From: Catellatospora paridis
GTDB lineage: Bacteria > Actinomycetota > Actinomycetes > Mycobacteriales > Micromonosporaceae
Direction: 5' to 3'
DNA: 64,000 nucleotides
Assembly: GCF_009720365.1 (NCBI RefSeq)
Contig: NZ_ML769314.1
Span: 115,264-179,263, forward strand
This document shows, piece after piece, positions 33,161-49,510 of this stretch. How positions within the stretch are numbered: position 1 is the stretch's first letter; the number at the start of each line of letters is the position of its first letter. The position numbers and the translations under genes were made by a program. Under the pieces are notes generated by a model. That model saw nothing but the letters and a program-made list of their open reading frames with translations, did no database searches and was not told the origin of the DNA.

Positions 33161-34282
33161 TCAGGCGGCGGCCAGGCCGGCGGGGCGGGCGTCCTGCGAC
33201 GCCGTGGGCACCGCCTCGGCGGGGGCGGCCAGCTCGCGCTCCTTGGCCTCGTACAGCGCCTTGATGTTGCTGCTGCCGAAGGTCAGCGCGCCGTGCCGCT
33301 CGATCAGCTCCAGGAACAGCGTCCGGCGCACGTGCATGGACTGCGTGAAGATCTGGTACAGCTCGCCGTAGTGGTCGGTGTCGACCAGCACCCCGAGCTG
33401 CCGCAGCTCCGCGATGGGCAGGTCGACGCTGCCCAGGCGCTGCTCCAGCGCGTCGAAGTAGGTCCCCGGCGTGCTGAGGAAGCCCACGCCCCGCTCGGCG
33501 AAGGTGCGCACTGCGGTGACGATGTCGTTGGTGCGGAAGGCCACGTGCTGCACCCCGGCCCCGGCGTGCCAGGACAGGAAGTCGTCGATCTGGCCGGGGC
33601 GGCGCGACAGGTCCGGCTCGATGAGCGTGAACGTCACCTGCCGCGACGGGCTCTGCACCACCTTGGAGTCCATGCCCTGCCCGCCGACCTCGATGTACTC
33701 CTCGAAGATCTCGGCGAAGCCGAAGACGTCCTGGTAGTAGCGCGAGGTGGCGGCGATCTCCCCGGCCGGCACGCAGATCGCGCAGTGGTCGATGACCTGC
33801 AGCAGGTCGTCGGCGTGCGACTGCTCGGGCACCGTCATCTCGATCGTGCCCGGCAGGAACTCCCACCGGGAGCCGTGCCGCTCGACGAGGCGGTGGGTGA
33901 CGTCGCCGAAACCGGAGACGCTCGCCTCGACGACCCGCCCCGCGCCGTTCTCGTGCACGGTCGGCGTGCCCAGCGCGGCGGCTCCGCGCCCGACGACGTA
34001 GTCGTACAGGCCGGCGGTGTCGTCGGTCTCGAAGGCGATGACGGCCACCCCGTCACCGTGGCGGCCGACGTAGAGCGTGGCCGGGTGGTCGGCGACCAGG
34101 CCGGAGGTGAGCACGATGCGGATGTCCCCGTGCTGCAGCAGCAGCGAGCGCTGCCCGGCCAGGCCCGTCTGTGGCCCACCCTGCCCGCAGATCCGGAACC
34201 CGAATGCCGTGCACAGATAGTAGGCCGTCTGACGGGCGTCACCGACGTAGAACTCCAGGTGGTCGATGCCGAGAATGTTCAT
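33161..34282 (-). CDS. hmaS: 4-hydroxymandelate synthase-type dioxygenase (HPPD family)
   Basis: A 373-aa non-haem iron dioxygenase that turns 4-hydroxyphenylpyruvate into 4-hydroxymandelate, the first step to 4-hydroxyphenylglycine. Two VOC domains are present; the iron ligands are His166 (VIDHCAI), His246 (GVQHVAF) and Glu325 (LFLELIERHG). The C-terminal helix reads FGSSNIKALYEAKE. In homogentisate-forming HPPD the equivalent motif is GAGNFKALFEA, and replacing that Phe with Ile is known to shift the product toward hydroxymandelate, so Ile340 favours the HmaS assignment. An HmO-like oxidase and an HpgT-like aminotransferase lie at 47116-49510, completing the pathway. First gene of the HmaS-PhyH-DUF3050 operon. 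HPPD of tyrosine catabolism is the alternative. Confidence 0.88.
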   Translation of the reverse strand: MNILGIDHLEFYVGDARQTAYYLCTAFGFRICGQGGPQTGLAGQRSLLLQHGDIRIVLTSGLVADHPATLYVGRHGDGVAVIAFETDDTAGLYDYVVGRGAAALGTPTVHENGAGRVVEASVSGFGDVTHRLVERHGSRWEFLPGTIEMTVPEQSHADDLLQVIDHCAICVPAGEIAATSRYYQDVFGFAEIFEEYIEVGGQGMDSKVVQSPSRQVTFTLIEPDLSRRPGQIDDFLSWHAGAGVQHVAFRTNDIVTAVRTFAERGVGFLSTPGTYFDALEQRLGSVDLPIAELRQLGVLVDTDHYGELYQIFTQSMHVRRTLFLELIERHGALTFGSSNIKALYEAKERELAAPAEAVPTASQDARPAGLAAA

Positions 34283-34617
34283 TTGCTACCTACCCCTTGG
34301 CGTACGATGTCCTGTTTTGCACTGACTGCTAGGACTCGCTCCTCGCCAGGTGGTGGGCGCGGAACGGGTCCACGGAACATGACTCGTCCCGGCGCTGCCG
34401 CTTCCGCGGCGCACGCCAAACGAACTCACCACGCTCCGATTGGCCGTCGTGCCCCTGTGACGTCCGTTGTTCACGACCCTCCCGCCGGAGCCGAACGCTC
34501 CGGCGAGGGCCGTCTGACTGTCACGCTAGCGGGTTATGCTGATGTCCCTCAATACCTAACTACGCAAATATTTAATTGCGACAGTATGTTGCGCGTGGCA
34601 AACGATTCGGTGACACC
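34283..34617. promoter_or_regulatory. Promoter region of the HmaS operon
   Basis: This 335-base gap lies between the HmaS-type gene and the stop of the ketosynthase gene, both leftward. No gene is supported. An A/T-rich tract at 34535-34600 includes CTCAATACCTAACTACGC and the imperfect palindrome CGCAA-N8-TTGCG (34563-34580). TACGCAAAT at 34561-34569 repeats a word in the ligase promoter region at 22022. These are candidate operator elements for a cluster regulator. Confidence 0.45.
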
Positions 34618-35883
34618 TCACTCAGCAAAACGGCTGAGTGACGTGGTGGGTCGACCCAGGACAAGGCTCACATTATGTCCGCCGAATCCGAATGAATTGG
34701 ACAGTGCAAAACCGATAGGACTTTGTCGGGCCTTGCCGCGAATATGGTCGAGATCGCACGCGGGATCGGGATCGTCGAGGTTCACCGTCGGCGGCAGCAG
34801 CCCGTGGCCCAGCGCCATGATCGTCGCGGCGGCCTCGATCACCCCCGACGCGCCGAGCATGTGCCCCGTGACGGCCTTGTTCGAGCTGACCGGCGGCATG
34901 GCCGAAGCGAACACCGTGTTCACCGCCAGCGACTCCGCCACGTCGCCCAGCTTGGTGCTGGTGGCGTGCGCGTTGAGGTAGCCGATGTCGGCCGGGGACA
35001 GCCCAGCGTCGGCCAGCGCCCGCCGCATGCACTCGGCCTGTCCCGCGCCGTCGGGCCGGGGTGTGGTCGGGTGGTGGGCATCGGTGGTCGCGCCCCAGCC
35101 GTGCAGCGTGGCGTACGCCGGCCGGCCCCGCGCGTCCGCGTCGGCGGCCCGCTCCAGCACGAACACGCCCGCCCCCTCGGCCAGCACCAGCCCGTTGCGC
35201 CGCGAATCGAACGGGCGGCTCGCCGCCGTCGGGTCGTCGCCCCAGCCCTTGGCGAGCGCGCGGGTGTTGCCGAAGGTGTCGGCCAGGGTCGGGAACAGCG
35301 GCGCCTCGCCGCAGCCGACCAGCACCACGTCCGCCTCGTCGTTGCGCAGGATGCGCATGCCCTCGGCGATCGACTGCGCCCCGGCCGCGCACGCGGTGCC
35401 GATGGAGGAGCTGTAGCCGCGCAGGTCGTACTTGATGGCGATGCGCGCGGTGGCCATGTTCGGCAGCATCCCCGGCAGCAGGTACGGGCTCACCCCGAGC
35501 CGCCCCTTCTGGGTACGCGTGATCACCTGCGCCTCCAGCGTGGCCAGCCCGCCCGTGCCGGACACCACGGTCGCGGCCCGATACGGGTCCACGTCGCGGC
35601 CCACCACCAGGTCGGCGTCGGCCATCGCCTGCGCCGCGGCGACCAGCGCGTGCACGATGTACCGGTCCAGCGTGCGCGCCTCCGGTCCGGGCAGCACGCT
35701 GGCCGCCTCGATGTCCGGGCCCTTGCCCATCACCTCCAGGGAGCCCTGCGCGCGGTGGCCCTCGGGGGTGGCGACGATCCCGGACCGGCCGGTGCACAGG
35801 GCGTCGAAGATGTCGTCGAGATCCTGTCCGACCGGGGTGACCAGGCCGATGCCCGTGACGACGATGTCAGGACGGTGGTTCAT
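34618..35883 (-). CDS. FabF-type beta-ketoacyl-ACP synthase
   Basis: A 421-aa condensing enzyme with a complete active site: Cys165 (IGTACAAGAQ), His306 (LNAHATST) and His341 in KAVTGHMLG, with Lys336. The start NHRPDIVVTGIGLVTPVGQ and the C-terminal NSFGFGGHN loop are those of FabF/type II PKS KS-alpha proteins. It should perform decarboxylative Claisen condensation on an ACP-bound acyl chain. Last gene of a seven-gene leftward operon, with its start overlapping the ligase stop by ATGA. No ketoreductase or dehydratase is nearby, so beta-keto groups would need host enzymes or remain. Confidence 0.93.
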   Translation of the reverse strand: MNHRPDIVVTGIGLVTPVGQDLDDIFDALCTGRSGIVATPEGHRAQGSLEVMGKGPDIEAASVLPGPEARTLDRYIVHALVAAAQAMADADLVVGRDVDPYRAATVVSGTGGLATLEAQVITRTQKGRLGVSPYLLPGMLPNMATARIAIKYDLRGYSSSIGTACAAGAQSIAEGMRILRNDEADVVLVGCGEAPLFPTLADTFGNTRALAKGWGDDPTAASRPFDSRRNGLVLAEGAGVFVLERAADADARGRPAYATLHGWGATTDAHHPTTPRPDGAGQAECMRRALADAGLSPADIGYLNAHATSTKLGDVAESLAVNTVFASAMPPVSSNKAVTGHMLGASGVIEAAATIMALGHGLLPPTVNLDDPDPACDLDHIRGKARQSPIGFALSNSFGFGGHNVSLVLGRPTTSLSRFAE

Positions 35884-37496
35884 CGCGACGCACCCGCCAG
35901 GGCGCGCTCGCGCAGCACCAGCTTGCGCACCTTGCCGGTGGCGCCGGTGGGGATGTCCGAATCGGGCACCGCGTTGACGTCGCGCAGCGTCGGCGCGGCG
36001 TGCTCCCCCAGCGCCGCGACGACGGCGTCACGGTGGTCCACCGCGGCGTCGGCCCCGGGCTTGAGCACCAGCAGCACGTCGGTGACGACCCGGCCGTTCT
36101 CGCGCACCGCCACGACGGTGCAGTCGAGCACGTCGGGGCAGCTCGCCAGGATCTTCTCCTCGGTCAGCGACGTGTGCAGCCACTGCCCGCCGTCCAGCAC
36201 GACCGAGTCCACCGCCCGGTCCACGTGGTAGTAGTAGCCGTCCTCGTCGTGGTACACGAGGTCACCGGTCAGGTAGTAACCCGACTGGCGGGTGCGGTAC
36301 TCGGTCACCGAGTCGTTCCAGTACATCAGCTTCACCGTCGGCGACTTCAGGCCCAGGTGCCCGACCACGCCCGCGCCCACCGGCTCACCGGCGTCGTCCA
36401 GCACCGCCACGTCGGCGAAGACGTGCGGGCGGCCGATGCAGCGGTTGTAGCGCTCGGTGTCCACCCGGTGGGTGATGTGGAAGGCGGAGTGGCCCATCTC
36501 GGTCGAGCCGATGCCGTCGATGAACATCGAGCCCTTGATCCGGGTCACGCCCTCGCGGGTGACCGTGTTGCGGCTGCCCACCGCGACCAGCGGCCGGATG
36601 TGCGCTTCGTGCGCGCAGTCGCCGGTGTTGAACCAGATCGCCACCGAGTCCAGCGCCCGCTTGCTCAGGTCGTGGCGGGCCATGTCGGCCCAGGTCACCG
36701 CGAAGCCGAAGACGCCCGTCGGCTGGAACCGCTCGATCGCGTCGAGCACGTAGTCGCCCCGCTGCGAGGACAGGAACACCAGCTCGGCGCGGTTGCACAG
36801 GGCCTGGTTGATGGACAGGATGCCCGCGGTGTGCGCCGACGGCAGCGCGCAGACGACCCGTTCGGTGCCCTGCGCCCGCGGGCCGGACAGCCGGATCTTG
36901 CGGGTGGCCGCGAACAGCGTGGTGTGCGAGTGCACGATCGCCTTCGGCAGGCCCGTGGTGCCGGAGGAGTGCGTGATCGAGATCGGGTCGTCCGGGTGGT
37001 GCCGGTAGGGCGGGGGAGCGGCGGCCGGGTCCGCGGAGCCCATCTCGGTGATGTCGCCGAGCAGGCGCGAGCCGAAGTCGCGGCCCTCCAGCAGCGCGGC
37101 GTGCTTCGCGTCGGTCAGCACCGCCTCGGCCCGCAGCCGGCGGATGTACTCGGCCGCGATCTCGCCGCTGAGGTTGCCGTTGAGCAGCGCCGGGATCGCG
37201 CCGATGCGGTTGAGTGCGAGGAACGACAGGATGACGTCGGCCGACGTGCTGGCGTACACCGCGACGGGGTCGCGCCAGCCGATGCCGCGTTCGTGCAGCC
37301 ACGCGGCGCGGGCCGCGACCCGCTCGTCGAGTTGCCCCAGCGTCAGCGGCTCCCACGCGGGATGGCCGTCGACGTCCACGTCGAAGGTCAGCCCGGGACC
37401 GGCCGGGTCGGCGCCGTGCGCCAGCAGCCGGGTGATGACGTTGCCCGCGCCGAGGTCGGCGTCGGCGGCGAGGATCGCCCGCAGGTTGGTTCCCAT
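35880..37496 (-). CDS. AMP-forming acyl/aryl ligase in the KS operon
   Basis: A 538-aa adenylate-forming enzyme. Motifs: ITHSSGTTGLPKAIVHSHT (A3, about residue 184), GIGSTEMGHSAFH (A5 region), YYLTGDLVYHDEDGYYYHVDR (A7-A8, cited in part) and a C-terminal GATGKVRKLVL with the catalytic Lys. The ATG at 37496 was chosen because it overlaps the previous stop as TGATG; an ATG three codons upstream is also possible. The sequence is distinct from the paralogous pair at 1502 and 22193. It would load a carboxylic acid onto one of the ACPs or onto CoA. Aromatic or fatty acid preference cannot be read by eye. Confidence 0.9.
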   Translation of the reverse strand: MGTNLRAILAADADLGAGNVITRLLAHGADPAGPGLTFDVDVDGHPAWEPLTLGQLDERVAARAAWLHERGIGWRDPVAVYASTSADVILSFLALNRIGAIPALLNGNLSGEIAAEYIRRLRAEAVLTDAKHAALLEGRDFGSRLLGDITEMGSADPAAAPPPYRHHPDDPISITHSSGTTGLPKAIVHSHTTLFAATRKIRLSGPRAQGTERVVCALPSAHTAGILSINQALCNRAELVFLSSQRGDYVLDAIERFQPTGVFGFAVTWADMARHDLSKRALDSVAIWFNTGDCAHEAHIRPLVAVGSRNTVTREGVTRIKGSMFIDGIGSTEMGHSAFHITHRVDTERYNRCIGRPHVFADVAVLDDAGEPVGAGVVGHLGLKSPTVKLMYWNDSVTEYRTRQSGYYLTGDLVYHDEDGYYYHVDRAVDSVVLDGGQWLHTSLTEEKILASCPDVLDCTVVAVRENGRVVTDVLLVLKPGADAAVDHRDAVVAALGEHAAPTLRDVNAVPDSDIPTGATGKVRKLVLRERALAGASR

Positions 37497-38050
37497 CAGC
37501 TGCACTCCTTCGGTCGGTTCACTTCGCTGTCACGTACGAGCACGGCCAGCGCGCGGTCACGCCCGCCGTCGCCCAGGGCCTGCTCGGCCACCACGATCAG
37601 GGCCTCGTCGGCGTCGCCGTCGCGGATCAGCAGCGACGCCATCGCCAGTCCTTCGGCCAGGGACTCCGTGACGGGGTCGGGGCCGCCGCCGGGGCTCAGC
37701 GAGACCACCGGCCCGCCCAGCTCCCACCGTGCCGCCACGTAGCCGGCCACCGCGTTGGGCACGGCCTGGAAGAACAGCAGCGGCCCCAGCCGCCGTCCGC
37801 CGTCGACGGCCCGCGCCACCTCGGCCGCCGTCGACGCGTCACCGGTCGCCGAAGAGATGATCACCGCGGTACGCAGCCCGCGCTCCGCCGCCACCGGAGG
37901 CTGCCCGTGGGCACGGGTCAGGCAGCGCTTGGCCGCCTCCGCCGCCAGCGGGCTGAACGTCGACATCACGAACCCGGCCAGCACCGGCGGCTCCGTGTCC
38001 GCCTCGGACTCCGGCCACGCGCCCCGCGCGACTTCCACCAGCGACGTCAT
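37496..38050 (-). CDS. Small KS-related protein, PF13723-like
   Basis: A 184-aa protein that resembles the N-terminal half-domain of ketosynthases (Ketoacyl-synt_2 type). It has the strand TAVIISSATGDASTAAEVARA and the segment LLFFQAVPNAVAGYVAARWELGGPVVSLSPG, which match how such proteins align to the KS dimer interface. There is no active-site Cys-His-His set, so it cannot condense by itself. PF13723 proteins accompany KS genes in aryl-polyene and related type II systems, where they may act as partner or chain-length-like subunits. It overlaps the KS upstream (ATGA) and the ligase downstream (TGATG). Confidence 0.65.
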   Translation of the reverse strand: MTSLVEVARGAWPESEADTEPPVLAGFVMSTFSPLAAEAAKRCLTRAHGQPPVAAERGLRTAVIISSATGDASTAAEVARAVDGGRRLGPLLFFQAVPNAVAGYVAARWELGGPVVSLSPGGGPDPVTESLAEGLAMASLLIRDGDADEALIVVAEQALGDGGRDRALAVLVRDSEVNRPKECS

Positions 38051-39189
38051 GGGGCGCCGACCACGAGGGCGGTGTTCGCGCCGCCGAAGGCGGCGTTGAG
38101 GCTGAGGGCATACGCCGGGGCGGCCGTGGTCGTCTCGGTGAGCACGCGCAGGGGGCAGTCCGGGTCGGGGCCGAGGTAGCCCGCGTTGACCGGCAGGAAG
38201 CCCTCACGCAGGGACAGCACCGTGGCGACCAGCTCCAGCAGGGGTGATGCTTCGAGGGCCTGGCCGTGCAGCGACTTGGTCGAGCTGATCGGCACCACCG
38301 CCGCGGGTGCGCCGAGCGCGCGGGTCAACGCGGCGGACTCGGCGGCGTCGCTCTGCGCGGAGCCCGAGCCGTGCGCGTTGACGTAGCCGAGCTGTTCCGG
38401 AGCCAGCGCGGCGCGGCCGAGGGCCGACTCGATCGCCCGGGCCAGGCCCGCGCCGTCGGGGCGCGGCTGCACCACGTGGTAGCCGTCCCCGGCACGGCCC
38501 CAGCCGAGCAGCCGGGCCAGCGGCGTCGCGCCCCGGGCCGACGCGGCGCGGGCCGACTCCACCACGACCGCGGCCACCCCGTCGCCGAGCAGCAGGCCCT
38601 TGCGTCCCGCGCTGAACGGGCGCACCGCGCCGTCGGCGGCGAGCGCCCGGCCCGCGTCGAACAGCGCGAACTGGTCCGCCTCGACCAGGTATCCGGCGGC
38701 CACCAGCAACCGGTCGGCGTCGCCCGCGGCCACCGCGGCGGCGGCGTCGGCGACCGCGGTGCTGGCCGCGACGCAGGCACTGGTGTACGTGCGCACGGCC
38801 CCGGACAGCCCCGCCTTCTCGGCGACGGTGAGCGTGAACGCACCGGTGCGGCCGGGCCGGTCGGGCAGGCCGCGGGCCCCGTCGGGCTCGCCGTGCACGG
38901 CCAGCAGCAGGGGAGTCGTGGCCCGCTGCGCCGCGGACAGCCCGGCTGACGTGGCTGCCTCGTCCACCACTGCGAGCAGCTCGTCCAGCAGCACCGGCGC
39001 GCCGGGCAGCAGCGCGCCGACGCCCACCCGCCGGCCGCTCACGTCGAAGCGGGTGACCGGCGCGAACGCCGGCCGCCCCGAGCGCAGTCCGGCCGACAGC
39101 GCCGCCGCGCCCCGGCCGTACGCGCTGACCGCCGACAACCCGGTGACCACCACCTGCGCGCGGTCACCGGCGGGGCGCGGTTCAGTCAC
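38047..39189 (-). CDS. Beta-ketoacyl-ACP synthase, second type
   Basis: A 380-aa ketosynthase starting from a GTG at 39189 (VTEPRPAGDRAQVVVTGLSAVSA), overlapping the ACP gene by 8 bases. The active site is complete: Cys139 (TYTSACVAAST), His273 (VNAHGSGSAQSD) and His308 in STKSLHGQALEA, with Lys305. It is shorter than the FabF-type KS of this operon and only distantly related to it. The retained Cys argues against a chain-length factor (usually Gln there). The two may act on different chains or at different steps, or form an unusual heterodimer with the 184-aa protein. Confidence 0.88.
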   Translation of the reverse strand: MTEPRPAGDRAQVVVTGLSAVSAYGRGAAALSAGLRSGRPAFAPVTRFDVSGRRVGVGALLPGAPVLLDELLAVVDEAATSAGLSAAQRATTPLLLAVHGEPDGARGLPDRPGRTGAFTLTVAEKAGLSGAVRTYTSACVAASTAVADAAAAVAAGDADRLLVAAGYLVEADQFALFDAGRALAADGAVRPFSAGRKGLLLGDGVAAVVVESARAASARGATPLARLLGWGRAGDGYHVVQPRPDGAGLARAIESALGRAALAPEQLGYVNAHGSGSAQSDAAESAALTRALGAPAAVVPISSTKSLHGQALEASPLLELVATVLSLREGFLPVNAGYLGPDPDCPLRVLTETTTAAPAYALSLNAAFGGANTALVVGAP

Positions 39190-39478
39190 CGGCAGGCTCC
39201 GCCAGCACCTCGGCCAGCACCTCGACCGCACCGGTCACCGTCGTCATGCGCATGAGCACGTCGTCGTCGAGGTCGAGCATCCGCCCGTGGCGCTGCTCGA
39301 CCTGGTGCACCAGCCAGGCCAGCTCCAGCGAGTCGATGCGTTCGCGCACCTGCTCCGGGCTGCGCTCGCCGTAGCCGGCCAGCATCGCGACGACCGCCGC
39401 CCGGTCCGGCGCGGCCGGTTCGCCCGCGCGCTGGCGCGGCACGCCGAGGGACCCGGCGGCCGCAACAGGGGCGTCCAT
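39182..39478 (-). CDS. Acyl carrier protein 2
   Basis: A 98-aa carrier protein with an Ala-rich leader of about 25 residues. The phosphopantetheine site is the Ser in RIDSLELAWLVHQVEQRHG (around residue 49), followed by an acidic helix III, LDLDDDVLMRMTTVTGAVEVL. The ATG overlaps the stop of ACP1 by one base, and its end overlaps the ketosynthase start. Two tandem, clearly different ACPs suggest separate roles, for example one for the starter/aryl unit and one for extension. Confidence 0.85.
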   Translation of the reverse strand: MDAPVAAAGSLGVPRQRAGEPAAPDRAAVVAMLAGYGERSPEQVRERIDSLELAWLVHQVEQRHGRMLDLDDDVLMRMTTVTGAVEVLAEVLAEPAGD

Positions 39479-39735
39479 CACGCGCTCGCCAGGTTGCCGC
39501 GTTCGCGGATCGCCTCGGCGAACTCGCCGACGGTCCAGGCCGCCATCTGCTCGGCCTCCTCGTCGCTGAACTTCACGCCGTAGGTGTCCTCCACCCGCAC
39601 CGCGAGCTCGGCGACGGCCAGCGACTCCAGGTCCACGCCCGCCGAACCCAGCGGCGTGTCGGCGTCGACGTCGTCGATCGGGTAGTTCATGTCCGCGATC
39701 GCGTCGATGATGAACTGGCGTACGTCGGTGCTCAT
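39478..39735 (-). CDS. Acyl carrier protein 1
   Basis: An 85-aa ACP starting MSTDVRQFIIDAIADMNYP, with GGAAGGAAG upstream. The modified serine lies in GVDLESLAVAELAVRVED (a variant of the usual DSL motif), and the following YGVKFSDEEAEQMAAW helix fits the ACP fold. It carries acyl intermediates as thioesters. It follows the ligase by 76 bases and is coupled to ACP2. Its order next to a ligase gene suggests that the ligase charges this ACP. Confidence 0.9.
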   Translation of the reverse strand: MSTDVRQFIIDAIADMNYPIDDVDADTPLGSAGVDLESLAVAELAVRVEDTYGVKFSDEEAEQMAAWTVGEFAEAIRERGNLASA

Positions 39736-41295: not shown

Positions 41296-41450
41296 GAATG
41301 CTCCGCCAGGTGTCGCAAGGATGCTGGAACCTGGGCCGTGCGCCCCCGACGGACCCGGTGAATCCGGAGACTAGCAAGCAGATCGATGTACTTGCAATGC
41401 TCGCTTTAAGTCTGTCGATACGTGAATGGACCAGCCAAAATTCGGGCTTT
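41296..41450 (-). promoter_or_regulatory. Promoter region of the ligase-ACP-KS operon
   Basis: This gap between the leftward MFS gene and the small ORF contains an A/T-richer tract at about 41380-41460 (ATGTACTTGCAATGCTCGC, TTTAAGTCTGTCGATACG). It is the likely start of the seven-gene KS operon. No terminator hairpin was found in it. Confidence 0.4.
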
Positions 41451-43043
41451 TCATGGCAGATGAGAGGGCCGCAATCCGACATTTATCTGACTCATCGTGA
41501 ATTCCATCCGGGCGAGTTCTGTGCGCAGCCGGGCCGCCTCGTGCCCGGCCCCGTCGTGCTCACGCCGCGCCAGCTCGCGCACCGCCTCGTGCACGGCCGG
41601 GGCGTCGAGCTGCGCCAGCGCGTGGGCCGCCGTCTTGGCACGCAGCGCCCGCCGCGGGGCGAGCCGGCGCAGCCCTGACCTGGCCTGCAGCGTCCACTGG
41701 CCGTCGGCGTAGCGCAGCGTGACCCGGGGGCCGAGCGCCGTCGCGGCCAGCCCGTACCCCCGCGGCAGCGCCGTTGCCGGGTCGGCGGTCGGCCCGCGGG
41801 CCCCGGCGTCGTTGAGCTCGCGCCAGACCCGGTGCCGGACGACCGGGGTGAGCGTGACCGCGAAGTACAGCAGCGAGGCCAGCAACACCCCGTTGACGAA
41901 GCCCAGCCGTTCCACGACGACCCCGGCGAGCACGCCGCCGAGCGGGATGCCGGCCATGGCCACGGCCATGATGATGCCGCCCGCGCGGGCCAGCATCGGG
42001 CCGGGCACCCGCTGGTAGATCACCGCGCCGATGGTCGGGTTCACCGAGCACATGACCATGCCGCTGAGGAACGTCACGATGACGATCACGGTCAGGTCGT
42101 CGGTGAGCGCGAAGACCAGGAACCGGGGCGCACCGCCCACGAAGTAGCCGAACACCAGCGCGCTGTAGCGCGGCAGGTACGGCGCCAGGGTCGCGAACAC
42201 GACACTGCCCACGATCATTCCGATGGCGTACGCCGCCGACACCGACCCCAGCGCGACCGGCGAATCCAGCACCGTCAGCACCCACATCGGCACGAACACC
42301 ACGGAGCTGGCCTGGTTGAACAGGTTGGTGAAGAACAGCATCCCGGTCACCGCGCGCAACAGCGGCTCCCGGGTGAAGTACGTGAACCCGCCGCGCAGCG
42401 CGGTCAGGTACGGCTCGGCCGGGGCGGGCTTCGGCGGCTCGCCCTCCTTGACGGCGGGGTCGGGCACGAAGAAGGCCACCAGCGCCGCGCCGACCAGAAA
42501 GCTCGCCGCGTCGACCCAGATCGCCCCGATCGCGCCGAACGCGGCGATGGCGACGCCGCCCACCGAGGCTCCGATCAGCCCCGAGGTGCGCAGCACGCCC
42601 TCGCGGGCCGCCGACACCCGGGTGAAGTCCGTGCCGGCGGCGTCCATCAGCGGCTTGAGCAGGTTGTTCTTGGAGCGGTCGGCCTGTGCCCGGAGCACCC
42701 CGGCCAGGCTGGACAGCACGATCAGCACGCCGAAGCCGAACTGCCCGGTCACCGCGATCGCGCCCATCACCACCGCGCTGCCCGCGTCCGACAGCAGCGA
42801 GGTCGCCCGCGAGCCGATCCGGTCCTGCAGCGGTGCGGCCAGCACCCCGCTCAGCACATACGCCAGCGTCTCCGCGCCCGCCACGATGCCGACCTTGACG
42901 GGACTGCCGGTGGTGACCAGCACCAGCCAGGGGATGGCCAGGAAGGACATCCGGCCGCCGATGACCGAGATCGCCTCCGCGGCGACCAGGCCGGGGATGG
43001 CGGCTCTGCGGCGCCAGGGCGACGGCGATGTCGCGATGGACAA
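41451..43043 (-). CDS. MFS exporter with the same C-terminal domain as the first
   Basis: A 530-aa major-facilitator (DHA3-like) protein starting from TTG, with AAGGAG 6 bases upstream. Around twelve hydrophobic spans fill residues 15-420, beginning IPGLVAAEAISVIGGRMSFLA as in the exporter at 23767 (LPVLAAEAVSTLATRMSLLA). The last 85 residues form a soluble domain, VTLRYADGQWTLQARSGL ... ALAQLDAPAVHEAVREL, ending in a coiled coil. It matches the end of the other MFS protein in pattern. Probable second exporter of the cluster product, divergent from the ATP-grasp gene. Confidence 0.9.
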   Translation of the reverse strand: MSIATSPSPWRRRAAIPGLVAAEAISVIGGRMSFLAIPWLVLVTTGSPVKVGIVAGAETLAYVLSGVLAAPLQDRIGSRATSLLSDAGSAVVMGAIAVTGQFGFGVLIVLSSLAGVLRAQADRSKNNLLKPLMDAAGTDFTRVSAAREGVLRTSGLIGASVGGVAIAAFGAIGAIWVDAASFLVGAALVAFFVPDPAVKEGEPPKPAPAEPYLTALRGGFTYFTREPLLRAVTGMLFFTNLFNQASSVVFVPMWVLTVLDSPVALGSVSAAYAIGMIVGSVVFATLAPYLPRYSALVFGYFVGGAPRFLVFALTDDLTVIVIVTFLSGMVMCSVNPTIGAVIYQRVPGPMLARAGGIIMAVAMAGIPLGGVLAGVVVERLGFVNGVLLASLLYFAVTLTPVVRHRVWRELNDAGARGPTADPATALPRGYGLAATALGPRVTLRYADGQWTLQARSGLRRLAPRRALRAKTAAHALAQLDAPAVHEAVRELARREHDGAGHEAARLRTELARMEFTMSQINVGLRPSHLP

Positions 43044-43217: not shown

Positions 43218-44516
43218 ATGCGGTTGCTCATGGTCGGAGCGGATCTGCCCGCCATCGCCGCGGCCGGTCCCGACGTCGAGGTGACCGTGCTGCTCGGCGC
43301 GACCACGAAGGACGGCTGGCTGCCGCTGCCCGCGGGAGTCCGCACCGTCTTCGTCGACGACCACAAGAGCATCGACGCCGCCGTCAACGGGCTGCTGCGC
43401 GCGGGGTTCGGCCCCGGCTCGTTCGACGCGGTCTACGCCTACGACGACCCCGCGCTGATGACCGCCGCGGCGCTGGCCGCCATGCTCGGGGCGCGCGGCA
43501 TCCCGCCGCGCACGGTAGCCCTGTTCCGGGACAAGTCCCTGCAGAAGCAGGCGCTGCGCGAGGCCGGGCTGCCGGTGACCGCGTGCACGGTCGTCGAGGA
43601 CATCCGCGAGCTGCCCGAGGGCTTCCGGCTGCCGTACCCCAAGGCCGTGGTCAAGCCGGTGGCCGGGATGGCGACGCAGTCCACATTCGTGGTCTCCGGC
43701 GACGCCGAGCTGGTCCGGATCAGCGCCCAGTGCCGGGCGAACAACACCGCCGCGCGCACCTTCGTCATCGAGGAGTTCGTCACCGGCGAGGAGTGGTTCG
43801 CCGACGGCTTCCTGTCCGAAGGGGAGCTGCGCTTCCTGAGCCTGGGCCGCTATGCCCAGCCCTGCCTGAGCGCGGTGCTGGAGAAGGCTCCCGTGCAGAC
43901 GTACTGCCTTGACCCGGTCGCGGACAAGGTGGCGTACGACCTGGCGGCGCCGCTGGTCGCCGACGCCCTGCGGGTGCTGGGCCTGACCGACGGCGTGTTC
44001 CACATGGAGCTGTTCCACCAGCCCGACACGGGTCGGCTGGTGTTCAGCGAGTGCGCGGCCCGCCGCGCGGGCGGCCCGATCAGCGACCAGATCCGCTACA
44101 AGTACGGCGTCGACCTGGCCGCCGACGGGGTGCGCGCCCTGCTGGAGCCGGTGGGCGAGCCGGACGTGCGGGTCCGCGAGGGCGTGGTCGCCTCCACGTT
44201 CCTGCCGCTGCGGCCCGGCATAGTGCTCGGTTACCCGACCGCCGAGCAGGTGCTGGCGCAGCCCGACGTGGTGCACGCCCGGATCTTCGTGCCCAAGGGC
44301 ATGCGGGTGCAGGGCGGCGCGGCGAACACCTTCGCCCGGATGGGCGAGGTCACCGTGCACACCGCCGACGCCGAGACCGCCCAGCGGCGGCTCACCGAGC
44401 TCGCCGACTGGTTCCGGCAGCACATCGAGGTGCTGCCGCTCGCCCCGACACTGCGGGAGCTGTACGCCGACCCCCGCAACGCCGACTTCGTCCACGCGGC
44501 CGCCGCGAACGGCTGA
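43218..44516 (+). CDS. ATP-grasp carboxylate-amine ligase
   Basis: A 432-aa ATP-grasp enzyme. After an N-terminal Rossmann-like part (MRLLMVGADLPAIAA) comes the ATP-binding region: LFRDKSLQKQALREAGLPV, the lysine strand PKAVVKPVAGMATQSTFVV, FVIEEFVTGEEWFADGF, and the metal-binding pair in GVFHMELFHQ and LVFSECAARRAGG. Such enzymes join a carboxylate to an amine through an acyl phosphate. They are common in NRPS-free peptide and amide pathways. With an Hpg-type amino acid made by this cluster and no NRPS, it is the prime candidate for amide formation (inference). Divergent from the MFS gene, followed by a hydrolase gene. Confidence 0.88.
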   Translation: MRLLMVGADLPAIAAAGPDVEVTVLLGATTKDGWLPLPAGVRTVFVDDHKSIDAAVNGLLRAGFGPGSFDAVYAYDDPALMTAAALAAMLGARGIPPRTVALFRDKSLQKQALREAGLPVTACTVVEDIRELPEGFRLPYPKAVVKPVAGMATQSTFVVSGDAELVRISAQCRANNTAARTFVIEEFVTGEEWFADGFLSEGELRFLSLGRYAQPCLSAVLEKAPVQTYCLDPVADKVAYDLAAPLVADALRVLGLTDGVFHMELFHQPDTGRLVFSECAARRAGGPISDQIRYKYGVDLAADGVRALLEPVGEPDVRVREGVVASTFLPLRPGIVLGYPTAEQVLAQPDVVHARIFVPKGMRVQGGAANTFARMGEVTVHTADAETAQRRLTELADWFRQHIEVLPLAPTLRELYADPRNADFVHAAAANG

Positions 44517-44625
44517 CCGCAGGCCCGCGACGAAGCGGACCCCGCCCGGCAGCGCCGAAACCCACGGCCCCCGCCGGGCCGAGCCGCTTCCGGCGCGGTC
44601 GTCTCAGCAGGATCAGGAGAGTTCC

Positions 44626-45561
44626 ATGCCACTCCACCCGCAGGTCCAGGCGATGCGCGCGCGTCGCGAAGCCGGCGACACCCCGCAGCTGTACACGCTG
44701 TCGGTGGACGAGGCCCGCGCCGCCGACCTGGCCTCGATCCAGGCGTCCGGGGGCGACCCCGAGCCGGTCGCCGAGGTCGCCGACCGCGAGATCGACGGCC
44801 CGGACGGGCCACTGCCGATCCGGATCTACCGTCCCGTGCTCGGCGGCGAGCTGCCGGTGCTGGTCTACTTCTTCGGCGGCGGCTGGACCCTGGGCACCAT
44901 CGACACCTCCGACGCCGTGTGCCGCAGCCTCGCCAACGCCGCCGGCTGCCTGGTCGTCGCCGCGGGCTACCGGCTCGCACCGGAGCACAAGTTCCCCGCC
45001 GCGGTGCACGACTGCCACGCCGCGGTCCGCTGGGTCGCCGCGAACGCCGCCGCCATCGGCGCGGACCCGGCCCGGATCGCGGTCGGCGGCGACAGCGCGG
45101 GCGGCAACCTGGCCGCCGCGGTGACCCTGCTGGCCCGCGCGGACGGCGACCTGCCGCTGGCCGGGCAGCTGCTGGTGTATCCGAACACCGATCACCGCTC
45201 GCACACCGCCTCGCTGCGCGAGGGCACCGACCCCTACCTGTTCAACGCCACCTCGGTCGCCTGGTACTGGGCCAACTACCTGGCCACCCCCGAGGACGGC
45301 CTGAACCCGCTCGCCTCGCCGCTGCGCGCGGACACCCTCGCCGGGTTGCCCCCGGCCCTGGTCGTCACCGCCGAATACGACCCGCTGCGCGACCAGGCCG
45401 AGGAGTACGCCCGCCGGCTCGGCCGCGAGGGCGTGCCGGTCACGCTGACCCGATACGACGGCATGGTCCACGGCTTCTTCTGCATGAGCGGCGAACTCGA
45501 CGCCGGCCGCCGCGCCATGGCCCAGGCCGCCGCTCAACTCCGCACCTGGTTCACCGCCTGA
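44626..45561 (+). CDS. Alpha/beta hydrolase (hormone-sensitive lipase family)
   Basis: A 311-aa esterase-like protein. The oxyanion segment reads VYFFGGGWTLGTIDTSD, where the usual first His of HGGG is Phe. The nucleophile elbow is VGGDSAGGNLAAAV, the Asp is in TAEYDPLRDQAEEYA, and the His is in YDGMVHGFFCMSG. The triad is therefore complete. It follows the ATP-grasp gene by about 110 bases on the same strand and may hydrolyse or transfer an ester of the product or a precursor. The His-to-Phe change may alter substrate choice but does not remove the catalytic residues. Confidence 0.88.
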   Translation: MPLHPQVQAMRARREAGDTPQLYTLSVDEARAADLASIQASGGDPEPVAEVADREIDGPDGPLPIRIYRPVLGGELPVLVYFFGGGWTLGTIDTSDAVCRSLANAAGCLVVAAGYRLAPEHKFPAAVHDCHAAVRWVAANAAAIGADPARIAVGGDSAGGNLAAAVTLLARADGDLPLAGQLLVYPNTDHRSHTASLREGTDPYLFNATSVAWYWANYLATPEDGLNPLASPLRADTLAGLPPALVVTAEYDPLRDQAEEYARRLGREGVPVTLTRYDGMVHGFFCMSGELDAGRRAMAQAAAQLRTWFTA

Positions 45562-45653: not shown

Positions 45654-46367
45654 TCAGGCGTAGACGGACTGGAGCCAATCCTCCAGCGCCTTCTGCTCGT
45701 CGGCCGCGTCGGCGTCCGCGTCGAAGTGGTGCACGGCCACGCCGACCGGGGCGCCGAACGCGTTGCGGCCGAAGAAGCGGTACAACGCGTCCTGGGTGCG
45801 CAGCCCGACGAAGTTCGGGTGCAGGTAGTCGACGACCGCCTCGGTCTGCCCGCCCGGCAGCGCGACCCGGACCGTGTCGTCCTGGCTGGTCTGGCCGGTC
45901 AGGCCGAGCGCGCCGCGCAGCGTGGTGAAGCCGTCGGGCGAGTTCGACGACGCCGGGGCGTCGGTCGACAGGTAGACGACCGGGCGGCGGCTGAAGTGGG
46001 TCAGGTACTGCCCGAGGGTGTGCAGGTAGAAGTCGGTGTGCTGGCCGGCGCCGTCGTACTGGTTGTCCCAGTCGTCGGTGAACACGCCGCTGTGCACGTA
46101 CCGGAACCAGGTCGTGCCGCCGTCCCGGCCCTCGACGGTGTGCTCGACCTGGTTGAACCAGCCGTTGTCGCCGTCCATCCGGGAGGCGAGGCGGTGCGGC
46201 GGGTCCCACGCGGTGACGGTGCCGCCGAACGCGGCCGCCCCGCCGACGCGCGGCTCGAACTCCATCGGCCACAGCCAGCCGCCGTTGCCGGTGGTGACGG
46301 CGTCCCAGTACTCCTCCGGGGTGGTCCGCAGCTCGCCCTCGCGTACGATCTCGAACTTCTTGCCCAT
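45654..46367 (-). CDS. SRPBCC/AHSA1-type protein
   Basis: A 237-aa protein with the helix-grip fold typical of the SRPBCC superfamily, starting GKKFEIVREGELRTTPEEYWDAV. The first half reads WPMEFEPRVGGAAAFGGTVTAWDPPHRLASRM, as in AHSA1 ligand-binding proteins. The second half is a repeat-like extension. Members bind hydrophobic ligands or help as cyclases/aromatases, but this type is widespread in paired ArsR-SRPBCC modules. It starts 4 bases after the stop of the ArsR-type regulator, so the two form one operon. A general stress or ligand-sensing role is as likely as one in the cluster. Confidence 0.8.
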   Translation of the reverse strand: MGKKFEIVREGELRTTPEEYWDAVTTGNGGWLWPMEFEPRVGGAAAFGGTVTAWDPPHRLASRMDGDNGWFNQVEHTVEGRDGGTTWFRYVHSGVFTDDWDNQYDGAGQHTDFYLHTLGQYLTHFSRRPVVYLSTDAPASSNSPDGFTTLRGALGLTGQTSQDDTVRVALPGGQTEAVVDYLHPNFVGLRTQDALYRFFGRNAFGAPVGVAVHHFDADADAADEQKALEDWLQSVYA

Positions 46368-46371
46368 GGTG

Positions 46372-47001
46372 CTACTCCTTCTCGGTGTCTTGCTCAGTTG
46401 AGTGGGTGCCGTCCGCGCGGGGCAGCAGCAGGCTCGGGTGCAGGCCGACGACCAGCCGGTGTCGGCGGCCGCCGGTGGCGCTCCCGTCGTGATAACGGCC
46501 GACCAGGGCGGCCAGCGTCTCGGTCAGCTCGGTGGCGAACGCGGCCCGGTCACCCGCCGACGCGAACCGGATCTCGGTGTCCACGGCGAACGTGGCCAGC
46601 GGACGGCGCGCGGCCCGTGCTCCGGTGATCAGCTCGCCGACCTCGCGGACCAGGCGCGAGGCCAGTGCCAGCAGCCAGCGGGCCGACTGCTGGTCGGGGG
46701 AGTGCTCCGGGTCGGGAGCGACCGCCGCGAACGCTGCGGGGGAGATGACGTAGGACGCCGCGGTCGCCCGCATCACGCGCTCGGTGCAGTTGCCCTTGCG
46801 CCGCTCCTCGACCAGCTCGATGAGCCCGTGGGCCTCCAGCGTCCGCAGGTGGTGGTTGACCTTCTGCCGGGTCAGCCCGGCCTGCGCCGCCAGTGTGGTC
46901 GCCGACCCCGGCTCGGCCAGCGCTGCCAGCAGCCGCGCCCGAACAGGATCGAGCGACACCTCGGCCACCGCCGCGTCATCGATCACACCGACTTCGAACA
47001 T
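46372..47001 (-). CDS. ArsR-family helix-turn-helix regulator
   Basis: A 209-aa winged-helix DNA-binding protein. The HTH is SATTLAAQAGLTRQKVNHHLRTLEAHGLIELVEERRKGN (quoted only in outline: recognition helix LTRQKVNHHLRTL, wing EERRKGNCTERV) at about residues 33-72. No metal-binding cysteine pair of the classic ArsR type is visible. The C-terminal half is variable and probably senses a ligand or forms the dimer. It is operonic with the SRPBCC gene downstream and may control it and itself. A role in controlling the neighbouring Hpg genes is possible but unproven. Confidence 0.85.
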   Translation of the reverse strand: MFEVGVIDDAAVAEVSLDPVRARLLAALAEPGSATTLAAQAGLTRQKVNHHLRTLEAHGLIELVEERRKGNCTERVMRATAASYVISPAAFAAVAPDPEHSPDQQSARWLLALASRLVREVGELITGARAARRPLATFAVDTEIRFASAGDRAAFATELTETLAALVGRYHDGSATGGRRHRLVVGLHPSLLLPRADGTHSTEQDTEKE

Positions 47002-47070: not shown

Positions 47071-47106
47071 CCCACGCCCCGACCCGTGGGCGGGCCGGGG
47101 CGTGGG
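47071..47106. terminator. Hairpin downstream of the HpgT-type gene
   Basis: Perfect 11-base arms CCCACGCCCCG (47071-47081) and its complement (47096-47106) surround a 14-base loop, 10 bases beyond the aminotransferase stop. Likely the terminator of the oxidase-aminotransferase unit. Confidence 0.7.
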
Positions 47107-47115
47107 GGAGTGGCG

Positions 47116-48408
47116 TCAGGCGATGGAGTCGCGCAGGAGCGCGGCGAGGCGGCGTACGCCCTCTTCGAGGGTGTCGGGGTCGAGGCCGCTGCAGGACAGG
47201 CGCAGCGAGTGGTGGCCGCCGTCGGTGTAGAAGAAGCTCATCGGGGTCCACAGGACGCCGTGGCGGGACGCGGAGACCTCCAGGAGCTTCTCGTCAGCCG
47301 CGATGGGCACGTCGACCACGGCGAAGAAGCCGCCCGCAGGCACGTTCCAGGAGATGCCCGCCTCGTCGCGCCAGGGGGCGGGCAGGTGCCGGTCGAGGGC
47401 GTCGAGCAGGCGCAGCAGGTTCTGCCGGTAGAAGGCGATCTTGTCCACGTTGGCGGCCTTGAGGCTGCACCCGGACTCCACCAGCAGGCCGCCGACCACG
47501 GCCTGGGCGATGGGGGAGGTGTTGACCGTGACCATGCTCTTGACCGCGGACAGTTCCTCGGCGAGCAGGGTGCGGTTGCCCGTGGCGTCGACGACGGTCT
47601 GGTCGGCGACCAGGAAGCCGATGCGCGCGCCGGGGAAGCAGGATTTGGCGAACGAGCCCAGGTAGATGACGCGCTGGTCGCGGTCGAGGGACTTGAGCCG
47701 GGGCCGGGGGCGGTCGTCGAGGCCGAACAGGCCGTACGGGTCGTCCTCCAGGATCAGCAGGTCCTCGGTGGCGGCGACGTCGAGCAGCGCGTGCCGGGCG
47801 GGCACGTCCAGGCAGCGGCCGGACGGGTTGGCGAAGTCGGGCACCAGGTACAGCGCGCGGGGGTGGCGGCCCTGGGCGCGCACCGCACGGGCGACCTCGG
47901 TGACCCGGGCGGGATCGAGGCCGTCCGGGCCTTCGGGCACCGGCACCACGTCGATGTTCAGCACGCGGGCCGCGCCGGTGATGCCGACGTAGCACGGCTC
48001 GGCCGCCAGCAGCACGTCGTCCGGGCCCGCGCACAACCCGCGCAGCGCCATGATCATCGCTTCCTGGCAGCCCGCGGTTACCGAGATCGCCTCGGCGGGC
48101 ACCTCGATGCCCTCGTCGATGGCGAGCATGCGGGCGATGAGCCCGTGGATCTGGCCGTTGGTGCGGCCGTACTGCATCAGGGCACGGCGGATCTGCTCCG
48201 GCGTGCTGCCCTGGTCACCGAGGTACGCGACGTACACGTCGAGGTACCGGGTGATGTCGGCGACGTCGTAGAAGCCCTCGTAAGGCCGGCCGGCGGCCAG
48301 CGAGATCGCGTCGGGGTAGCGCCCGGCGACCTCGTTGAGGAAGTTCATCGAGGCGGCGACGGGATCGCTCACCGAGGCGTGCATCGACTCCTTGACCAGC
48401 TCCACCAT
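47116..48408 (-). CDS. hpgT: HpgT-type aminotransferase (4-hydroxyphenylglycine transaminase)
   Basis: A 430-aa class I/II PLP aminotransferase starting VELVKESMHASVSDPVAASM, with GGAG 7 bases upstream of the ATG. The N-terminal block SMNFLNEVAGRYPDAISLA and GRPYEGFYD are those of HpgT proteins of glycopeptide pathways. The PLP lysine is in YLGSFAKSCFPGARIGF, and FANPSGRCLD and LEDDPYGLFG frame the cofactor. It would convert 4-hydroxybenzoylformate to 4-hydroxyphenylglycine. Thirteen bases separate it from the hydroxymandelate oxidase gene, which makes its substrate. A regulator of the MocR type is excluded because no HTH domain is present. Confidence 0.88.
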   Translation of the reverse strand: MVELVKESMHASVSDPVAASMNFLNEVAGRYPDAISLAAGRPYEGFYDVADITRYLDVYVAYLGDQGSTPEQIRRALMQYGRTNGQIHGLIARMLAIDEGIEVPAEAISVTAGCQEAMIMALRGLCAGPDDVLLAAEPCYVGITGAARVLNIDVVPVPEGPDGLDPARVTEVARAVRAQGRHPRALYLVPDFANPSGRCLDVPARHALLDVAATEDLLILEDDPYGLFGLDDRPRPRLKSLDRDQRVIYLGSFAKSCFPGARIGFLVADQTVVDATGNRTLLAEELSAVKSMVTVNTSPIAQAVVGGLLVESGCSLKAANVDKIAFYRQNLLRLLDALDRHLPAPWRDEAGISWNVPAGGFFAVVDVPIAADEKLLEVSASRHGVLWTPMSFFYTDGGHHSLRLSCSGLDPDTLEEGVRRLAALLRDSIA

Positions 48409-48421
48409 GAAAGCGCTCCGT

Positions 48422-49510
48422 TCAGGTGTCGCGCCGGTCGGGCAGCAGCGCCGCGTCACGGCCGATGTCACCCAGCCGCGGCCGCCCGGCCAGCGCCATC
48501 GTGTGTTCCAGCTCGCCGGTGAGCATGGTCAGCAGCCCGGCCACGCCGTCCGCGCCGCCGACCGCGAGCGCCCACAGCGCCGGGCGGCCGACGAGCACCG
48601 CGCTCGCGCCGAGAGCGAGCGCGGCGAAGACGTCCCGGCCGTGGCGTACGCCCCCGTCGAGCAGCACCGGGCAGCGGCCCGCGACCGCCGCGACCACCTC
48701 GGGCAGCGCCCGCAGTGCGGGCACCGCACCGTCGAGCTGGCGTCCGCCGTGGTTGGACACGATGATCGCGTCGACGCCCTGCTCGACGGCACGGTCGGCG
48801 TCGGAGGCGGTGAGCACGCCCTTGAGCACCAGCGGCAGGTCGGTGAGCCCGCGCAGCCAGGCCAGGTCGGCCCAGGTGACGGTCTGGTCGAAGGTCTGCG
48901 CGGCGTGGGCGGCGATGGCGGACGCGCCCTCGTGGCGCTCGTGGGTGGCCGCCATGATCGCGTCATCGAGATTGACCGCGCGGATCCCGGGGTCGACGGC
49001 GAAGCCGTTGCGCGCATCGCGCAGGCGCTGCCCGATGCGCGGCGCGTCGACGGTCAGCACCAGCGCCCGGTAGCCGGCGTCCTGGGCGCGGCGGGCCAGC
49101 TCGGCGAGCACGGTGCGGCGGCGCAGCCAGTACAGCTGCAGCCAGAGCGGGCCGGTCGCGGCCGCGGCGATCTCCTCCAGGCTGCGGCTGGCGAAGATGC
49201 TCACCACGAACAGGGCGCCGCCGGCGCCGCGGGCGGTGGCGACCTCGCCCTCGGGGTGGGCCAGCCGGTGGTACGCCGTGGGCGCGATGCCGACCGGCGT
49301 GGGCAGCGGCTGGCCGAGCAGCTTGCCACCCGTGTCGCAAACGGACACGTCGACGAGCACTCGGGGCCGCAACTCGACGCGGTCGAACAGGCGGCGGTTG
49401 GCGTCCAGCGTGAGTTCGGCGCCGCTGCCGCCGTCGAGGTAGTCCCAGATGTCCGCGGGCAGCAGGGGCTGGGCGAGGGCGCGGTAGTCGTCGGTGCACA
49501 GGATCGGCAA
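48422..49510 (-). CDS. hmo: FMN-dependent alpha-hydroxy acid oxidase (4-hydroxymandelate oxidase)
   Basis: A 362-aa flavoprotein of the glycolate oxidase/mandelate dehydrogenase family. I chose the TTG at 49510, which has GGAGG 5 bases upstream, since the ORF before it shows no family resemblance. Landmarks: IWDYLDGGSGAELTLDANRR near the start, GIAPTAYHRLAHPEGE, VLTVDAPRIGQRLRDARNGF, the substrate loop VSNHGGRQLDG with the catalytic His and Arg, and LLDGGVRHGRDVFAALALGA. In glycopeptide producers this enzyme (HmO) oxidises 4-hydroxymandelate to 4-hydroxybenzoylformate. The HmaS-type and HpgT-type genes in the same window support that role. Confidence 0.88.
   Translation of the reverse strand: MPILCTDDYRALAQPLLPADIWDYLDGGSGAELTLDANRRLFDRVELRPRVLVDVSVCDTGGKLLGQPLPTPVGIAPTAYHRLAHPEGEVATARGAGGALFVVSIFASRSLEEIAAAATGPLWLQLYWLRRRTVLAELARRAQDAGYRALVLTVDAPRIGQRLRDARNGFAVDPGIRAVNLDDAIMAATHERHEGASAIAAHAAQTFDQTVTWADLAWLRGLTDLPLVLKGVLTASDADRAVEQGVDAIIVSNHGGRQLDGAVPALRALPEVVAAVAGRCPVLLDGGVRHGRDVFAALALGASAVLVGRPALWALAVGGADGVAGLLTMLTGELEHTMALAGRPRLGDIGRDAALLPDRRDT

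Follow-up and report, generated by a model that had tools for sequence, protein, structure and literature searches.

A widespread actinobacterial gene cluster family that probably makes 4-hydroxyphenylglycine and uses it outside modular nonribosomal peptide synthetases

L-4-Hydroxyphenylglycine (Hpg) is known as a building block of nonribosomal peptide synthetases (NRPSs). The gene cluster described here lies in a 64,000-nucleotide stretch of a Catellatospora genome (G000), referred to as the window, which corresponds to positions 115264 to 179263 of the 830,706-base contig C3. It encodes a predicted 4-hydroxymandelate synthase (HmaS), 4-hydroxymandelate oxidase (HmO), and Hpg-forming aminotransferase (HpgT). 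The cluster probably belongs to a widespread actinobacterial family that makes Hpg and uses it outside modular NRPSs, joined, presumably through an amide bond, to an acyl unit assembled on carriers. The predicted proteins support an Hpg supply route, free AMP ligases with carriers, a short ketosynthase (KS) system, and an amide-forming enzyme class.

Among described systems, the Hpg supply genes of glycopeptide clusters (PDB entries 2r5v and 5zzp/6ai7) resemble those of the window in all three enzymes. HmaS and 2r5v fell into one clade with 100/100 support, and HpgT and HmO were 49 to 51% and 49 to 52% identical, respectively, to their counterparts in three glycopeptide-like loci (L220, L230, and L231). 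In contrast to glycopeptide clusters, the window has no condensation domain on its contig and carries a PhyH-type oxygenase, a pair resembling a KS and a chain length factor (CLF), free AMP ligases, and an ATP-grasp ligase. The clusters for epoxinnamide and other cinnamoyl-containing nonribosomal peptides likewise combine Hpg genes (HmaS and an HpgT/HmO fusion) with a type II polyketide synthase (PKS); in these clusters a highly reducing type II PKS makes the cinnamoyl chain and an NRPS incorporates Hpg (PMC9321520). Compared by description and not by sequence, the window differs in having no NRPS on its contig and in giving no match to ketoreductase, dehydratase, or condensation families when its genes from 28 to 50 kb were scanned. 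Without ketoreductase and dehydratase matches in these genes, the window cluster is not expected to yield a polyene; the aryl polyene ApeO-ApeC pair and the ishigamide KS-CLF are likened to it through the small KS-like subunit (KSsmall), whose structural model is discussed below.

The cispentacin/coronafacic acid set AmcB/AmcF/AmcG/AmcH (PMC10698177) shares with the window a free ligase, a small acyl carrier protein (ACP), a KS with Cys, and a half-size partner, whereas the window proteins score below the family cut-offs and are accompanied by an extra FabF-like KS and by HmaS, HmO, and HpgT. The ava and cma clusters for avenalumic and p-coumaric acid (PMC10777205) are similar in that their diazotase AvaA6 is a relative of AMP ligase B and that ACPs, a KS, and a CLF are nearby. 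However, AMP ligase B remained below the AvaA6 cut-off (494 versus 975 bits), and a scan of the genes from 28 to 50 kb, which included no model specific for them, revealed no nitrous-acid or 3-amino-4-hydroxybenzoic acid (3,4-AHBA) genes. With scores below the cut-offs, the cispentacin and ava/cma clusters were rejected as the identity of the window cluster and are regarded as relatives only. A plasmid locus of Streptomyces sp. NBC_00335 (L079, NZ_CP108007.1) has the same block of AMP ligase, two ACPs, KS2, KSsmall, and KSa at 43 to 61% identity; HmaS and PhyH are replaced there by p-aminobenzoate genes and a diiron oxygenase. The foxicin cluster was rejected, as its abstract describes three modules of type I PKS and one of NRPS, and the terms hydroxymandelate, phytanoyl, and dehydrogenase E1 are absent from the available portion of its description (PMC5318452). 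No description of the NRPS-less Hpg/KS combination was found in searches of an open-access library; subscription journals, supplements, and MIBiG lay outside the search, so the product may already be known. Each module is a known one, and what seems new, as far as these searches show, is their combination without an NRPS and its breadth.

A preliminary description of the window had proposed an Hpg route from genes at 33161 (HmaS), 47116 (HpgT), and 48422 (HmO). The gene models, obtained from a GC-frame gene call and HMM scans (Pfam and NCBIfam), and the PDB matches placed all three enzymes there, and the three genes showed coding-type GC3. The discrete AMP ligases, ketosynthases, ATP-grasp ligase, and carriers listed with them were also found, one ACP being recognised by Pfam and the other ACP-like open reading frame (ORF) having no Pfam match.

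The best PDB match of the dioxygenase was 2r5v (molecule PCZA361.1; 310 bits), which we take to be the HmaS of the chloroeremomycin cluster; the Streptomyces 4-hydroxyphenylpyruvate dioxygenase (HPPD) 1t47 gave 241 bits. In a 41-row tree, 35 rows including 2r5v and the window protein were split with 100/100 support from six HPPD rows, which comprise two PDB chains, the genome's own copy on contig C23, and three others; the program warned of long branches meeting near the 9lia row and near L234/L235. The second PDB match, 7yvv, is labelled HPPD, yet it was placed in the HmaS clade. Two positions of the C-terminal helix are Ile and Tyr in the window protein (NIKALY) and Phe and Phe in HPPD (NFKALF). 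The pattern NI..LY was present in 125/125 family rows (at least 52% identity and 75% coverage, no stop; some loci counted twice), and NF..LF in none. In a Streptomyces HPPD, the F337I change led to some hydroxymandelate (PMC3739788). These observations indicate that the dioxygenase is likely of the HmaS type and apart from HPPD. NCBIfam labels it 4HPPD, above the cut-off, and no HmaS, HmO, or HpgT model was among the NCBIfam rows listed, as would fit a misnaming in which a tyrosine-catabolic HPPD, a generic oxidase, and a generic aminotransferase had been taken for the three enzymes. The genome, however, has its own HPPD on C23, only 39% identical to the window protein. Together with the tree and the helix residues, this led us to reject tyrosine catabolism, and the misnaming is extremely improbable.

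The aminotransferase fell into a 26-row clade (100/100) of a 31-row tree, together with the enzymes of L220, L230, and L231, and a long branch separated this clade from five generic aminotransferases. The three loci were called glycopeptide-like solely from their P450, A-domain-like, HmaS, and HmO neighbours, and the clade also takes in L241 and L242, of unestablished gene context. The placement suggests that the enzyme is of the HpgT type. For HmO, the best single-domain PDB match was the 4-hydroxymandelate oxidase 5zzp (322 bits), with the glycolate oxidase 5zbm 14 bits behind (308 bits); the nominal top row, the lactate oxidase 7f22, is a sum of two 165-bit domains. The HmO tree, whose reference set was without lactate or glycolate oxidase, was compatible with HmO identity but weaker. 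A placement of the three enzymes in tyrosine catabolism, lactate oxidase, and generic aminotransferase clades, which the preliminary description had named as one possible refutation, was not seen for HmaS and HpgT, and for HmO the case is compatible with the proposed identity but weaker.

The same description had claimed an Hpg cluster without an NRPS and asked for a search of the surroundings. A profile search of the genome gave 20 Condensation matches, located on contigs C1, C2, C6, C14, C15, and C25, and none on C3 over all 830,706 bases, and an NRPS next door was rejected on this ground. The absence of an NRPS holds for the window locus and most family members, not for all, because some members bear condensation domains. 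That Hpg feeds an NRPS on another contig, with the neighbouring ligases and ketosynthases unrelated to it, would be consistent with the condensation domains on those six contigs and with the epoxinnamide precedent, in which Hpg genes and a type II PKS stand beside an NRPS (PMC9321520). This is very improbable, since HmaS, HmO, and HpgT are found jointly with the KS block and PhyH in different genera. A crude read of the A4-A5 region, weak as evidence, also gave nothing resembling an Hpg code for 10 A domains on other contigs.

An HmaS-alignment scan of one genome per GTDB species returned 136 relatives, and the best 80 of these 136 loci were analysed. Together with L079 they make up 81 loci, 80 of them with HmaS by construction. 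Flanks reached at most 10 kb or the contig end, and presence and absence in retrieved DNA apply to those stretches. The relatives belong to Catellatospora, Rhizocola, Longispora, Saccharothrix, Labedaea, Kribbella, Micromonospora, Actinophytocola, Kitasatospora, Actinacidiphila, Dactylosporangium, Catenulispora, and others. PhyH was present in 80 of the 81 loci, AMP ligase B in 73, KSa in 71, AMP ligase A, ACP2, and KSsmall in 68 each, KS2 in 63, ACP1 in 61, and DUF3050 in 57. In 80/80 loci PhyH followed HmaS on the same strand within 126 bp. HpgT and HmO were counted in only 23 and 21 loci because of the limited flanks, and in Micromonospora genomes searched whole, both were present at a greater distance.

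In the retrieved regions of 11 Catellatospora genomes, HmaS, HmO, HpgT, KS2, KSsmall, KSa, PhyH, the ATP-grasp ligase, and the LipP1-type hydrolase were found in all 11. DUF3050 was present in 8 genomes and the O-methyltransferase, the E1 genes, and ArsR in 9 each, a shortfall that is partly due to the ends of the retrieved DNA. With 11/11 genomes of the genus and the core in other families, the conservation of the cluster is not due to chance. Among 354 Micromonosporaceae genomes, 126 had a KSsmall match, 121 of them strong after five weak matches were set aside. KSsmall and HpgT (matches with E up to 1e-90) occurred together in 119 genomes, KSsmall only in 2 (G238 and G255), HpgT only in 45, and neither in 188 (119, 7, 45, and 183 with the five weak matches retained). 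These counts describe presence per genome, not linkage, and because related species are not independent, a Fisher p value for the co-occurrence is not a strict probability. The KS block was present in about a third of the genomes sampled.

Linkage was followed in 20 genomes hand-picked from the 126. HmaS was in the retrieved DNA of all 20, and in 20/20, HmaS, HmO, and HpgT shared a contig with the KS block. HmO was 7 to 26 kb from KSsmall, and HpgT adjoined HmO, from overlap to about 90 bp. Two genomes with the KS block were excluded because HmaS was absent from their retrieved DNA: G012, whose contig does bear HmaS, PhyH, HmO, and HpgT at a greater distance (locus L103), and G322, which has HpgT megabases away. 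A compact version of the cluster (L225) was seen in a 4.5-Mb genome of another family of the order (G406), with no E1 genes in 20 kb. Second-type Hpg loci were seen in Micromonospora (L222 in G294 and L228 in G220), having HmaS at 47 to 49% identity, HmO, and HpgT, and no PhyH or KS block in 20 kb.

In the KS block, the active-site Cys of KS2 (Cys153) was invariant in 15/15 aligned rows. KSsmall has 184 amino acids, half a KS, and its model (pLDDT 90.3) was nearest in the PDB to the short chain length factor ApeC (6qsp_B, E 3.1e-8, TM 0.66), close to the ishigamide CLF. KS2 with its Cys and KSsmall as a KS-like partner of CLF fold are consistent with a putative type II KS-CLF pair. In 19 Micromonospora loci (e.g., L142:1290-2537), an additional FabF-type ketosynthase was observed upstream of AMP ligase A. 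The p-aminobenzoate context of L079 suggests that the KS block can handle aryl starters. KS2, KSsmall, and ACP1 also weakly match AmcF, AmcG, and AmcB of cispentacin biosynthesis, whose AmcF/AmcG pair extends and cyclises (PMC10698177). By analogy, Hpg might be loaded on a carrier and malonyl-extended by the KS pair, with the half-size subunit as a cyclisation factor, to give a tetramic-acid-like or pyrrolidine product. The matches, however, were 143, 38.7, and 23 bits and all below the NCBIfam cut-offs of 325, 80, and 80, the fold of KSsmall is nearest to a chain length factor, AMP ligase A resembles CoA ligases, and Saccharothrix-type members have no KS genes in the retrieved DNA; such an extension of Hpg is improbable.

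The candidate amide-forming gene differed between lineages. Among the 80 loci, an ATP-grasp gene of the L-amino acid ligase (LAL) type was found in 9 (seven Catellatospora, Rhizocola, and Allorhizocola), a glutathione synthetase (GS)-like ATP-grasp gene, named ATPg2, in 42 (41 Kribbella and Micromonospora, one record titled Streptomyces), and a condensation protein in 20; 9 had none in the retrieved DNA, and no locus had two classes. The window ligase has a PF13535 match, resembles the L-amino acid ligase 4wd3 in the PDB (E 9.5e-20), and scored 28.8 bits with LAL_C2, just below the 29.4 cut-off, which places it in the predicted L-amino acid ligase class. ATPg2 had no Pfam or NCBIfam match at E 0.001, and its AlphaFold model (pLDDT 90.6) matched glutathione synthetases and glutathionylspermidine synthase (best E 2.1e-16). 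ORFs of this group occur in tandem, two in L108, L112, and L113 and three in L116, which suggests successive couplings. In seven Saccharothrix/Labedaea loci (L089-L092 and L094-L096), a gene similar to the Condensation domains of the window genome by BLAST lies between AMP ligase B and HpgT; carrier stretches, and in L094 an A-like one, were read in it by eye. Kitasatospora, Actinacidiphila, and Dactylosporangium have a small Condensation protein (Pfam-scanned in L078) with a KSIII-like protein, a third ACP, a glycosyltransferase, and an ABC-2 exporter. We infer that different candidate joining enzymes form the same bond across lineages.

In the proposed pathway, HmaS would convert 4-hydroxyphenylpyruvate to 4-hydroxymandelate, HmO would oxidise this to 4-hydroxyphenylglyoxylate, and HpgT would aminate the latter to Hpg, steps supported by sequence and linkage. 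The free AMP ligases may put carboxylic acids on two carrier proteins, and the KS2/half-CLF pair and the FabF-like KS may assemble a short acyl chain. The LAL-type ATP-grasp enzyme of Catellatospora could couple Hpg as an amide to the acyl unit or to another amino acid, a role that a GS-like ATP-grasp or condensation protein would take in other lineages. PhyH, DUF3050, and the O-methyltransferase are putative tailoring enzymes, the transporter of the major facilitator superfamily (MFS) is a putative exporter, and the E1 alpha/beta pair might supply or transfer an acyl unit from a 2-oxo acid.

The E1 pair allows another route, in which it would decarboxylate 4-hydroxyphenylglyoxylate to a carrier-bound 4-hydroxybenzoyl starter for the ketosynthases, HpgT being a side branch. 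E1 alpha was present in 77 and E1 beta in 75 of the 81 loci, in most cases on the downstream side of HmaS-PhyH. The scan of the genes from 28 to 50 kb gave no E2 or E3 family, and ketosynthases and a CoA-ligase-like AMP ligase are available. This route is nevertheless unlikely: a side branch would not need HpgT beside HmO in 20/20 genomes or in 119 of the 121 genomes with strong KSsmall matches, and E1 genes were not seen in the retrieved DNA of L104, L159, L223, and L225.

The use of Hpg outside NRPSs in an amide with a carrier-built acyl unit remains the preferred reading, and several observations weigh against it, the missing E1 genes among them. HmO is the weakest of the three enzyme calls and leans on linkage more than on its tree. 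AMP ligase A resembles aryl/acyl-CoA ligases; in Micromonospora-type KS2 rows, the first His motif is NAN, not NAH, i.e., the first active-site His is replaced by Asn. The ATP-grasp and LipP1 genes (43218-45561) run in the opposite direction to the operon. In the retrieved DNA, L070, L073, L075, and L079 have the KS block but not HmaS (genomes G141 and G142 hold a second copy of the block with HmaS), and Saccharothrix/Labedaea loci have HmaS but not the KS genes; because each occurs without the other, the two modules are separable. The outlying locus L224 (HmaS 51%) has no PhyH in the retrieved DNA. In 45 genomes HpgT was present and the KS block was not. Co-occurrence was counted per genome and not per locus; in G322, HpgT is far from the KS block. 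Because the amide classes follow taxonomy, the pattern of one class of three per locus may reflect a few replacement events.

A more specific version is offered tentatively, as falling somewhat short of an even chance: an undescribed family with a core of HmaS-HmO-HpgT, PhyH, and free AMP ligases and carriers, and with interchangeable amide enzymes, yielding Hpg amides of short type II PKS acyl groups. In this version, and with confidence likewise just under the midpoint, these enzymes would be an LAL-type ATP-grasp, a GS-like ATP-grasp (sometimes two or three tandem copies), a stand-alone condensation protein, or a condensation protein of NRPS-like type that also has a carrier domain. The interpretation of the preliminary description, a non-NRPS metabolite, is supported, but as a family and not one cluster; the product may contain Hpg or an aryl-glyoxylate unit, and epoxinnamide provides a precedent for Hpg with a type II PKS beside an NRPS (PMC9321520). 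If true, genome mining would be blind to a widespread NRPS-free use of Hpg, and the family would offer a supply of Hpg-amide ligases. With one core and a candidate amide gene that changes from lineage to lineage, the family would also serve as a natural experiment in which one bond is made by different enzyme kinds.

The features of the cluster are listed in Table 1. Read from 49.5 down to 28.3 kb, the minus-strand genes are HmO, HpgT, ArsR, AHSA1-like, MFS, AMP ligase A, ACP1, ACP2, KS2, KSsmall, AMP ligase B, KSa, HmaS, PhyH, DUF3050, O-methyltransferase, E1 alpha, and E1 beta. The ATP-grasp ligase and the LipP1-type hydrolase are encoded on the plus strand, flanked by the MFS gene on one side and the AHSA1-like gene on the other. 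Many neighbouring genes overlap or are tens of bases apart; the gaps beside KSa and AMP ligase A measure 335 and 208 bases.

Table 1. Predicted features of the cluster, with coordinates in the window
Feature	Position	Strand	Basis and remarks
HmaS-type 4-hydroxymandelate synthase	33161-34282	-	best PDB 2r5v; HmaS clade 100/100; NIKALY residues
HmO-type FMN 4-hydroxymandelate oxidase	48422-49546	-	PF01070 (FMN_dh); best single-domain PDB 5zzp/6ai7; adjoins HpgT
HpgT-type aminotransferase (class I/II)	47116-48471	-	PF00155; 100/100 clade; start codon may be ~20 codons in
PhyH-type Fe/2-oxoglutarate oxygenase	32192-33145	-	PF05721
DUF3050 haem-oxygenase-like protein	31374-32162	-	PF11251, E 2.6e-93
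O-methyltransferase (Methyltransf_2)	30286-31278	-	profile match
Thiamine diphosphate (ThDP) E1 alpha subunit	29235-30221	-	PF00676; TIGR03182 296 bits, below cut-off 394
ThDP E1 beta subunit	28261-29238	-	PF02779/PF02780; NF006667 240 bits, below cut-off 321; start approximate, inside longer ORF
FabF-like ketosynthase KSa	34618-35883	-	profile matches; Cys and His motifs read in translation
AMP ligase B, AvaA6 diazotase relative	35880-37505	-	NF058622 494 bits, below cut-off 975
KSsmall, half-size chain-length-factor-like subunit	37496-38050	-	NF058659 AmcG 38.7 bits, below cut-off 80; structural model
Divergent ketosynthase KS2	38047-39231	-	profile matches; Cys invariant in 15 aligned rows
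ACP2, second carrier-protein-like ORF	39182-39478	-	IDSLEL motif in translation; no Pfam match
Acyl carrier protein ACP1	39478-39735	-	PF00550
AMP ligase A	39812-41482 (ORF)	-	PF00501; likely true start ~80 codons in; closest PDB aryl/acyl-CoA ligases
MFS exporter	41451-43043	-	PF07690
ATP-grasp ligase, L-amino acid ligase type	43218-44516	+	PF13535; PDB 4wd3
LipP1-family alpha/beta hydrolase	44626-45561	+	NF058653 392 bits, above cut-off 350; often beside HmO-HpgT
AHSA1-like protein	45654-46367	-	below cut-off
ArsR-type regulator	46372-47001	-	PF12840

A histidine kinase and a LuxR-type response regulator adjoin HmO (49857-51904, plus strand), and the kinase gene was in the retrieved region of 11/11 Catellatospora genomes. 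On the other side, AMP ligase, MFS, GDSL lipase, isochorismatase-type, and alpha-lytic-protease-like genes (22193-28203) remain beside the cluster in many Catellatospora loci; homologues of GDSL2 and AMPlig0 were found in 36/81 and 26/81 loci, respectively. Farther away, a 2172-amino-acid ORF (9873-16391, plus strand) has a weak, below-cut-off DUF6443 match and a GC3 lower than that of its neighbours and is possibly a large repeat/RHS-type protein. By Pfam scan, AMP ligase, UDP-glycosyltransferase, and pyridoxal phosphate-dependent decarboxylase genes at 1388-6425 possibly belong to another metabolite cluster.

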